64,000 nt of DNA, from positions 248,001 through 312,000 of the forward strand of contig NZ_SJZG01000002.1 in NCBI RefSeq assembly GCF_004959775.1, read 5' to 3'. Source of the stretch: Agromyces sp. H66 (GTDB lineage: Bacteria; Actinomycetota; Actinomycetes; Actinomycetales; Microbacteriaceae). Both the position numbers and the translations under genes were made by a program. The notes beneath the pieces are model-generated. The model did no database searches, was not told where the DNA came from, and was given only the letters and a program-made list of their open reading frames with translations. Shown in pieces: positions 4,554 to 10,836 of this stretch (positions within the stretch are counted from its first letter, which is position 1; each line of letters starts with the position of its first letter).

Positions 4554-6632
<2,079 letters not shown>

Positions 6633-6777
6633 GTCGGTCAAGCCTACTGACGCCGGGCGACACGACGCGTGAGGCGCTACGCGCACAGCGAAATGCCAGC
6701 CTCAACGGGAGGATCCCCCTCCTGCGCGTGCTTTCATTGAGGGACGGAATCATCGAGGTCGAGCAGGAGGAGGAGCC

Positions 6778-7107: not shown

Positions 7108-7851
7108 TCAGCCCCGCGCCAATGGCGCCGCCGCGCGAACCGCACCGAGCTGCGCCTCCCTGGCCGCGGTCGCGTACTCGTCCACCATGGCGGCGCGTGG
7201 ACCCGGCTCGTACGCGAGGCTCGCACGCTCGGCGGCGACGCCGAGGAGGTGGTCGGCGAACGCCGGGTTCTTCGCGAGCACCGGGCCGTGAAGGTGAGTG
7301 CCGATGACGGAGCCCATCACGACGCCCTCCTGGCCGGATCCCCGGCTGTTGCCGACGCCCGAGCGCACGCGACCGAGCGGCGAGCCCTCGGCGCCGACGT
7401 ACTCGCGGGCGTGGTTCTCGAAGCCGACGAGCGTGCCGAAGCGCGGCGAGGCGACCACGAGGTCGCCGGTGATGCGCGCCGGCGCCGGCACCGCACGGCC
7501 GGGCAGGATGCCGAGTCCCTCGACGCTCGATCCGTCGGGGCGTTCGATCCCCCAGCTGAGGAGCTCCCACCCGGTGCCCACCGCGAGGATGGGAACGCCC
7601 TCGGTGCCCCAGGTGCGAAGTTCGTCGTGCATCGTGAGCAACCGGCCTCGGCTCTGCTCGAGCGACGAGTCGCTGCCGGACCCGAGCACGACGGCGTCGA
7701 CACGAGCGGGAAGCTGCTCACGCGTGTCGACGGCCACGACCCGGGCCTCCAGGCCGGCCCACTCGGCGCGGCGACGGAGCACCGCCGCGTTCTCGGAGTC
7801 TCCGTTCGTGTTCTGGTACGCGGGCAGCAGGGCGACGATGGTGAGGGTCAT
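7108..7851 (-). CDS. gatD: GatD-type glutamine amidotransferase-like protein lacking the nucleophile Cys
   Basis: A 247-residue class I (CobB/CobQ-like) amidotransferase of the GatD family. In other bacteria GatD supplies ammonia to MurT to amidate D-Glu of lipid II. The family features are present: GFENH (143-147), the GVGNSRGS loop and the catalytic-His block GTHLHGPVLAKNP with His188. The nucleophile elbow, normally AVCGGYQLL, reads AVGTGWELL, so Gly92 (codon GGC) replaces the catalytic cysteine. Glutaminase activity should therefore be absent. The start ATG overlaps the murT stop (ATGA), so the two are translationally coupled downstream of rpoD. See the findings for a possible altered role in group B peptidoglycan. 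Confidence 0.85.
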   Translation of the reverse strand: MTLTIVALLPAYQNTNGDSENAAVLRRRAEWAGLEARVVAVDTREQLPARVDAVVLGSGSDSSLEQSRGRLLTMHDELRTWGTEGVPILAVGTGWELLSWGIERPDGSSVEGLGILPGRAVPAPARITGDLVVASPRFGTLVGFENHAREYVGAEGSPLGRVRSGVGNSRGSGQEGVVMGSVIGTHLHGPVLAKNPAFADHLLGVAAERASLAYEPGPRAAMVDEYATAAREAQLGAVRAAAPLARG

Positions 7852-9104
7852 TCCGCTCCCGAGAGTCCGAGGTGGGCCCGAGTGCGCCGCATCGAGTCGG
7901 CCGTGAACACGATGGTCTTCACGCCCGACGCTGGGGCGGGCAGGGCGAGGAAGTCGTCGAGGGCGCGCGACAGATCGGTCTCCACGCGATCGATCTCGAC
8001 GCCGTCGTAGGCGAGCATGAGCGCCGCCTCGGCCGACTTCGAGCCGCTCACGATCGCCACCCGGCGAAGCGACGAGGCATCCGTCGGCCAGAAGTACGAG
8101 GGATCGCGCACGTCGGAGCCCATCGCGAAGAGGATCTGCTCAGTGCCCGGTTCGATGCTGTCGACGTTGAGCTGGTAGCTCGTGGGGTTCTGCACGAGCA
8201 CGAACTCGACCTCGTGGCCGCGCACGGTCACTCGCTCGCCACGACCGAACACGGGAGGGATGGAGCCGAGCGCCTCGTTCGCGGTCTGCGCGGAGAATCG
8301 TTCGCCGAGCACGGCCTTCGCCGTCGCGTACGCGGCGGCCGCGTCGACGGCGTAGTGCACGCCGCGAGCCGGCAGCGACGTCGTGATGAACGCCCGGCCG
8401 TCGTTGACGAGTGCGGTACGACCGTCGACCCCTTCGACGATGACCCCGTCGCCGGGCGCGAGCCGAGTCGCGCTCGTCTCGGTGTATCCGAGCCCGCGCG
8501 GCGTCGCGTCGACGACCGCCTGCGAGACCCCGAACCGATGCACCGCGACCTCCGGCGACACCTGCGCAGCGAGACGCTCGAGGTAGGCGTCGTCGGCGTT
8601 CACGATGATCGCCTCGTGCGCGCGCGCCGCGATCTTCGCGAGCATGCCCGCGACCATGTCGGAGTCGTGGAACCGGTCGATCTGGTCGACCATGACGTTC
8701 GTCAGGGCGACGGCGCGTGCGTCGACGCCCTGCATGACGAGGGCGCCGTGGCCCTCGTCCATCTCGAGCACGGCCATGTCGCCGGGCACGCGTCCCCGCC
8801 AGTCGGCACGTTCGAGGAGCGCCGAGGTGAGTCCCTGGCTGATGTTCGCCGTCGACGGGTTCGTGAACACGTCCACGCCGTGGGCGCGGAGGATCGCGAC
8901 GAGCATCTTCGTCGTGGTCGACTTGCCGCTCGACCCCGAGACGACGACGAGGCCCTGCGGGAAGCCCGAGAGCGTCCGCCTGAGGTAGCCGGGAGCGATC
9001 CGGTTGACGATCAGGCCCGGAATGGCCGATCCGCCGCCGGGCTTGCGCAGCCGGGCGGCGAATCGGACGAGCCTGCCGACGAGGATCGCCGGCGCGTAGC
9101 GCAC
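7848..9104 (-). CDS. murT: MurT-type Mur ligase (DUF1727 domain), zinc ribbon absent
   Basis: A 418-residue Mur ligase family protein. In other Gram-positives MurT uses ATP to activate the alpha-carboxyl of D-Glu in lipid II. The P-loop is VSGSSGKSTTT (55-65). The conserved EMDE and LTNVMVDQIDRF blocks follow, and the C-terminal DUF1727 domain has LVQNP (303-307) and VRDPSYFW with Asp334 near the expected catalytic Asp. The protein contains no cysteine, so the four-Cys zinc ribbon usually inserted in the middle domain of MurT is missing. The start GTG lies 7 bases after the rpoD stop, making an rpoD-murT-gatD operon. Confidence 0.85.
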   Translation of the reverse strand: MRYAPAILVGRLVRFAARLRKPGGGSAIPGLIVNRIAPGYLRRTLSGFPQGLVVVSGSSGKSTTTKMLVAILRAHGVDVFTNPSTANISQGLTSALLERADWRGRVPGDMAVLEMDEGHGALVMQGVDARAVALTNVMVDQIDRFHDSDMVAGMLAKIAARAHEAIIVNADDAYLERLAAQVSPEVAVHRFGVSQAVVDATPRGLGYTETSATRLAPGDGVIVEGVDGRTALVNDGRAFITTSLPARGVHYAVDAAAAYATAKAVLGERFSAQTANEALGSIPPVFGRGERVTVRGHEVEFVLVQNPTSYQLNVDSIEPGTEQILFAMGSDVRDPSYFWPTDASSLRRVAIVSGSKSAEAALMLAYDGVEIDRVETDLSRALDDFLALPAPASGVKTIVFTADSMRRTRAHLGLSGAE

Positions 9105-9111
9105 CGGTGGC

Positions 9112-10545
<1,434 letters not shown>

Positions 10546-10836
10546 TCGTTGAACCTCTCCTACCGTCGCGCGGCGTGTGCCCTCTCGGACGCGCGGCTCG
10601 TGCATTCGGCCCGGTCGTTTTCGGACACTATGAGGACCCATGTCAAGTCCGCTTGTTCGGCGCGAACATGTCGTGCCAGCGGACCAGAACGGGTCCTGTC
10701 CTCCATTATACAGTCACCCGTGCGCGCGGGCGTCCACGCGCCGGCCCGCTCCCCACTGGATGACAACGAATCCGGGCCGCCGGGAATTCCCTCTGAGCGG
10801 CGATTCTGCCGCGATTCCGGCCGCGGCGCCGCGCGA
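10546..10836. other. Leader and promoter region of rpoD
   Basis: This 291-base gap separates the rpoD start from the 3' end of the PAC2 gene. It holds a TATAAT on the minus strand (10705-10710), the palindrome TGTTCG-GCG-CGAACA (10654-10668) downstream of the inferred transcription start, and GGACC/GGTCC arms at 10681-10696. I see no open frame with a ribosome-binding site. Confidence 0.6.
10705..10710 (-). promoter_or_regulatory. -10 element of rpoD
   Basis: Read on the minus strand this is a perfect TATAAT, rare in this GC-rich sequence. No good -35 is seen 16-18 bases upstream (TGGACG lies 20 bases away). Transcription would start near 10698 and give a leader of about 150 bases. Confidence 0.6.

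Follow-up and report, generated by a model that had tools for sequence, protein, structure and literature searches.

A cysteine-less MurT-GatD pair behind rpoD in Agromyces and other Microbacteriaceae: a probable amino-acid ligase of group B peptidoglycan that alternates with a CofE-like gene

The lipid II isoglutaminyl synthase consists of two proteins, MurT and GatD, and the known target of MurT is the alpha-carboxyl group of D-Glu, as described in PMC3266927. According to the same source, the Staphylococcus aureus complex is needed whichever donor is used, and the S. aureus pair with the C94G substitution in GatD remains able to use free ammonia for amidation at pH 8.5. The roles of the S. 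aureus GatD residues Tyr17, Gly60, Cys94 and Arg128, which are compared below, are those given in PMC5871853. In another described system, CofE proper, an amino acid is joined via its amine to an acyl phosphate, as presented in PMC10861534. In group B walls, the D-Glu alpha-carboxyl is described as bearing the bridge; in Clavibacter, D-Glu is linked to D-Ala by D-diaminobutyrate (D-Dab) (both in PMC9603630). The wall diamino acids (Lys, Orn) are given mostly clade by clade in the literature consulted, and no enzyme for the group B bridge step was found named in the open-access literature searched.

The window, the whole stretch of 64,000 nucleotides from Agromyces sp. H66 analysed here, contains a MurT-GatD pair on its reverse strand, where all features of the window given below also lie. 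The MurT homolog (418 residues, 7848..9104) lies directly downstream of rpoD, the gene of the principal sigma factor (9112..10641) and a conserved neighbour of Cys-less pairs in Microbacteriaceae, and is followed by the GatD homolog (247 residues, 7108..7851). Further downstream lies a topoisomerase subunit gene of the parE/gyrB type (4554..6686), by which the locus is often bordered on the right in relatives. Seven bases separate rpoD and MurT, and the MurT stop and the GatD start overlap by 4 bases, in agreement with the coupled operon described in the initial annotation of this DNA.

The GatD homolog (PF07685, 68.9 bits) has the fold of the class I glutamine amidotransferases but lacks their nucleophile Cys. 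Its AlphaFold model (pLDDT 92.3) has 6gs2_A as the top PDB match (TM 0.89), and in the phmmer alignment with S. aureus GatD (5n9m/6gs2; E ~3e-31) the catalytic Cys94 falls on Gly92 (codon GGC, 7576..7578), which confirms the replacement first noticed from the letters alone. The equivalent of S. aureus GatD His189, His188 (7288..7290), is kept in the window. The MurT homolog (PF08245, 48.5 bits; PF08353, 25.5 bits, with a cut-off of 25) contains no Cys in its 418 residues and thus no zinc ribbon, and the retention of its P-loop and C-terminal region was also read correctly at the outset. The P-loop is GSSGKST (8916..8936), the sequence in Cys-bearing relatives being mostly GTNGKTT. Glu114 (8763..8765), the equivalent of the Mg/ATP residue Glu108 of S. 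aureus MurT, is kept, as is Asp334 (8103..8105), the equivalent of the third triad residue Asp349; the loop preceding the latter is 3 residues shorter than that of Cys-type MurTs. At the place of the adenine-pocket Asn267 stands Asp254 (8343..8345). Both proteins miss the NCBIfam equivalog cut-offs (GatD, 124 bits against 450; MurT, 81.9 against 800). Homology with the MurT-GatD superfamily is seen in the adjacent genes, in the Mur ligase, MurT_C and GATase_3 domains and in the fold, and the P-loop Lys and the Glu at the Mg-binding Glu108 place are features of a Mur-type ATP-dependent ligase. Since the AlphaFold model of MurT (pLDDT 87.6) matched the MurT and the MurF/pMurE folds alike, the model does not decide the acceptor.

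The MurT_C match is the single one in the whole Agromyces sp. H66 genome. No second GatD was found there: three further GATase_3 matches (L003-L005) did not match GatD (phmmer, E 1e-3), and from their sequences we take them to be PdxT, PurQ and HisH.

We surveyed 120 Microbacteriaceae genomes from 85 genera and fetched the MurT-GatD loci. Over all loci examined, inside and outside this set, Cys was present in 0 of 187 readable rpoD-linked GatDs, as against 55 of 60 readable unlinked GatDs, these being counts of loci in which some genomes are counted twice. Four rpoD-linked loci have no readable GatD (L088, L094, L293, L308); L043, L047, L082 and L309, being fragments or ends of contigs, were counted as unlinked, and L104 and L105, which are other Mur ligases, were left out. 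The residues at the Cys place of the rpoD-linked GatDs were Gly (162), Ala (12), His (7), Ser (3), Asn (2) and Thr (1). The loss of Cys in rpoD-linked GatDs is far beyond chance. The comparison outside the group B family also came out as the initial annotation had anticipated, Cys being present in all 41 GatD loci that were retrieved from further families of the same order; these 41 belong to the 60 unlinked GatDs above and are a subset of about 66 strong MurT matches from that one order. The retained histidine noted in the initial annotation is present in the window, but the His189 place is His in just 63/187 rpoD-linked GatDs and has been lost in most of these relatives.

Three kinds of MurT-GatD exist in the family: type i and type iii stand behind rpoD, and a Cys-bearing type is found elsewhere. 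The pair in the window belongs to type i. In type iii (L095-L098, L100, L102, L103), the GatD Cys is replaced by His, the Asp349 place is lost, and MurT keeps one or two CxxC motifs (7/7 loci). In a quick maximum-likelihood tree of MurT, types i and iii form separate, distant clades, so the GatD Cys was probably lost twice, independently in the two types. The nearest MurTs in the tree are Cys-bearing, ribbon-less MurTs of other families and of Microbacteriaceae. Two genomes, G066 (L076/L060) and G054 (L079/L040), each hold a Cys-type pair and a Cys-less pair. The two matching halves of the MurT of L070 lie in one open frame, with about 165 additional bases between them. In some family members with small genomes, a shortened or eroded GatD stands beside an intact MurT (L024, L027, L028, L053, L061, L088).

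The erosion of GatD in such genomes, L088 for example, would fit a pair that is a pseudo-enzyme or a decaying remnant with a regulatory role. We consider this very improbable, because MurT is kept in 58/60 genomes of the own genus, Agromyces, and because the median dN/dS among 15 genomes of that genus, the window's included, is 0.20 for MurT and 0.29 for GatD. The two Agromyces genomes lacking MurT are G255, an assembly of 170 contigs with a completeness score of 100%, and G455, with a completeness of 77%. Two further observations argue against decay: the Glu108 place of MurT is Glu in 191/191 rpoD-linked loci, and every one of the 99 Microbacterium genomes analysed below has either MurT or a CofE-like gene.

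The zinc ribbon proved to be a poor guide. Its loss had been coupled in the initial annotation to that of the Cys as a sign of changed function. This argument was rejected, because most Cys-bearing pairs have no CxxC in MurT either (42 of 55 unlinked pairs, namely 21/21 and 9/20 in the two out-of-family groups and 12/14 in the family); the ribbon is not diagnostic.

The changes in the glutaminase site are wider than the one Cys. Compared with Cys-bearing GatDs, the places of Tyr17, of the oxyanion Gly60 and of Cys94 are altered in nearly all type i GatDs, and the Arg128 place stays. Judged from the aligned residues, the glutaminase site of type i is dismantled as a whole, with the fold kept. 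In MurT, the Asn267 place is Asp in 164/169 distinct type i sequences and Asn in 98% of the Cys-type ones, and the Asp at the adenine pocket may mean that a different nucleotide is used. The loop before Asp349 is shortened in nearly all type i MurTs, and the Asp349 place itself is Asp in 182/191 rpoD-linked loci. The retention of a dead GatD would be explained by the S. aureus complex, which is needed whatever the donor.

A pair of this kind might still be a D-Glu amidase that uses free ammonia directly, without glutamine. The activity of the S. aureus C94G pair with ammonia (PMC3266927) is a precedent, and the catalytic residues of MurT are kept. We regard continued amidation as improbable, however: nearly every type i MurT is altered near the nucleotide and in the stretch leading to Asp349, group B walls carry the bridge on this very D-Glu carboxyl, and the gene that alternates with the pair comes from an amino-acid ligase family and not from an amidase family.

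This alternation was clearest in Microbacterium. In 99 genomes searched at E 1e-20, 15 had MurT, 84 had a CofE-like (PF01996) gene, none had both and none had neither; the search profile for the CofE-like gene (A3) was built from six genes found behind rpoD. All 15 MurTs adjoin rpoD, and the CofE-like gene adjoined rpoD in 30/30 loci fetched, out of the 84 genomes. The Fisher value for the mutual exclusion is 4.6e-18, with relatedness ignored. On a quick tree of rpoD DNA from 45 Microbacterium, parsimony required at least 10 changes between MurT and the CofE-like gene, at least 2 of which are forced by well supported branches. A record titled Planococcus sp. APC 4015 (L283) contains a MurT locus of the Microbacterium type and is probably a mislabelled or mixed assembly.

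In the 120 family genomes, the corresponding numbers were 84 with a type i or iii MurT, 16 with the CofE-like gene (class b) and 0 with both; the scoring of G099 as type i is based on a 78-residue fragment, and that of G113 on contig pieces in which rpoD was not seen. The class-b gene stood next to rpoD in the fetched sequence of 6 of the 16 genomes. In these searches the remaining 20/120 genomes showed neither of the two, 12 of them holding a Cys-type pair only and 8 none of these genes. Of 11 rpoD stretches retrieved from MurT-less genomes, 6 had the CofE-like gene; the other 5 comprised one contig end, one with a racemase-like gene and three with neither gene. In G053, which has no MurT or class-b CofE-like gene at rpoD, another CofE-like gene lies beside a Mur-ligase-like gene (L377:1186-1902, reverse strand). 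The absence of MurT from most Microbacterium was considered as a refutation of a role in group B walls and was dropped; the CofE-like gene fills those genomes. The pair is not, on the other hand, the general group B enzyme that had been suggested, as 84/99 Microbacterium hold the different gene and 20/120 family genomes hold neither.

The CofE-like gene behind rpoD gave 26-55 bits with PF01996 (cut-off 25), and three of its proteins gave 30-35 bits with TIGR01916, whose equivalog cut-off is 180.65; by these scores its product is related to CofE only weakly. A separate, high-scoring PF01996 gene is found elsewhere in the genomes, that of Agromyces sp. H66 included, and is presumably the true CofE. 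The mutual exclusion shows a shared role of MurT-GatD and the CofE-like gene, and not its chemistry. A ligase that joins an amino acid by way of an acyl phosphate is the simplest common denominator of the two.

Further genes accompany these loci. An ATP-grasp protein (PF14397) was found in 14/16 genomes with the CofE-like gene, 4/7 of type iii, where it lies nearby, and 2 type i genomes at high score; in the family-wide search it was absent from the genome of Agromyces sp. H66. Of the named MurT loci, taken as the best 80 of 133, 47 have an alanine-racemase-like gene downstream of the pair; the window has none. The alr cut-off was reached by 1 of 4 racemase-like genes scanned, and the gene could be an ordinary alanine racemase. 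A diaminobutyrate transaminase above the NCBIfam cut-offs occurs in 2 of the 11 rpoD stretches from genomes without MurT.

Since Schleifer and Kandler, group B peptidoglycan has served in taxonomy as a marker. The Microbacteriaceae are described with this type of wall in PMC10978784, and the wall of Agromyces aureus is typed as B2gamma in PMC5217419. In A. aureus AR33, the pair stands behind rpoD, and its GatD has Gly at the Cys place, reading VPILAVGTGWELL. Lacisediminihabitans, Frondihabitans and Salinibacterium are listed as B types in PMC7033078, and their loci likewise have Gly at this place. Whether MurT or the CofE-like gene marks Lys or Orn walls was also considered, the diamino acids being given mostly at the level of clades. 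Among the best 80 of 133 loci, the named relatives with a MurT locus include Microbacterium, Curtobacterium, Agreia, Labedella, Frondihabitans, Salinibacterium, Lacisediminihabitans and Humibacter.

Taking these observations together, we think it probable that the rpoD-linked Cys-less MurT-GatD acts in group B peptidoglycan as an NTP-dependent amino-acid ligase and that the CofE-like gene does the same step. MurT would phosphorylate the D-Glu alpha-carboxyl in the precursor stem peptide, like the known amidase, and the amino group of the first bridge residue, instead of ammonia, would attack the acyl phosphate. This residue would be diaminobutyrate in Agromyces and other residues elsewhere. 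GatD would no longer hydrolyse glutamine and would serve as a structural partner that MurT needs for activity, perhaps also holding the amino acid. The same step would fall in other lineages to the unrelated CofE-like ligase, in most cases together with an ATP-grasp partner, at the same site behind rpoD. The bond made is likely to be that between the bridge amino acid and the D-Glu alpha-carboxyl, because of the group B walls, the known target of MurT and the diamino-acid and racemase genes in the neighbourhood. Much of this was proposed in the initial annotation, namely the activation of D-Glu by MurT, a bridge amino acid as the acceptor and a GatD that is not a glutaminase, and it has now gained strong, if indirect, support at the level of sequence from the family-wide loss of Cys and from the exclusive alternation with a gene whose family comprises amino-acid ligases.

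Both ligases might instead act on another carboxyl of the envelope, such as that at position 3, of hydroxyglutamate or of a glycopolymer. The cell-wall context is based on homology and neighbours, and a CofE-like gene, qimC, lies in a wall-modification operon of Streptococcus pyogenes, its chemistry being presented as unclear in PMC13059722. A target other than D-Glu seems unlikely to us, since the known MurT acts exactly on the D-Glu alpha-carboxyl, the group that is used in the group B walls described for the family. With D-Glu as the preferred target, we lean towards a wider proposal, that two unrelated and interchangeable systems at one chromosomal site form the D-Glu bridge amide, a defining bond of group B peptidoglycan. 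One would be a Mur ligase whose glutaminase subunit is dead and which was recruited on two occasions, as type i and as type iii; the other would be a CofE-like protein with an ATP-grasp partner, and the two would have been swapped repeatedly within one genus. The group B bridge step would then have two candidate enzymes at one locus, and Microbacterium would offer a clean natural experiment. If this is true, a glutamine amidotransferase became an amino-acid ligase through the loss of its glutaminase.

Among known systems, the pair in the window is most readily set beside the lipid II isoglutaminyl synthases of S. aureus (6gs2), S. pneumoniae (6fqb) and S. pyogenes (9sq9), with which it shares the gene pair, the Mur ligase middle domain, MurT_C and the GatD fold, as well as the equivalents of the P-loop Lys, Glu108, Asp349 and Arg128. 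It differs from them in having no catalytic Cys, Tyr17, oxyanion Gly60 or zinc ribbon, in the change of Asn267 to Asp, in the shortened Asp349 loop and in scores far below the NCBIfam equivalog cut-offs; it also differs in its rpoD locus and in the alternation with a CofE-like gene. The Cys-bearing ribbon-less pairs of other families, and of 12/14 Cys-type loci in the family, have no CxxC, as in the window, and seven in-family Cys-bearing members could be aligned at 33-39% identity. Unlike the window, these pairs keep the Cys, the TNGKT motif and the ADGRD loop and are not beside rpoD. The alternative gene at rpoD resembles the F420-0:gamma-glutamyl ligase CofE/FbiB in matching PF01996, yet it lies far under the TIGR01916 cut-off. 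Aslfm of Enterococcus faecium is a D-amino-acid ATP-grasp ligase of the bridge. Some CofE-like loci are like the Aslfm-type systems in that an ATP-grasp protein lies near a racemase-like gene, whereas the ATP-grasp protein here is of the PF14397 type, belongs to a group B family and has a putative activity.
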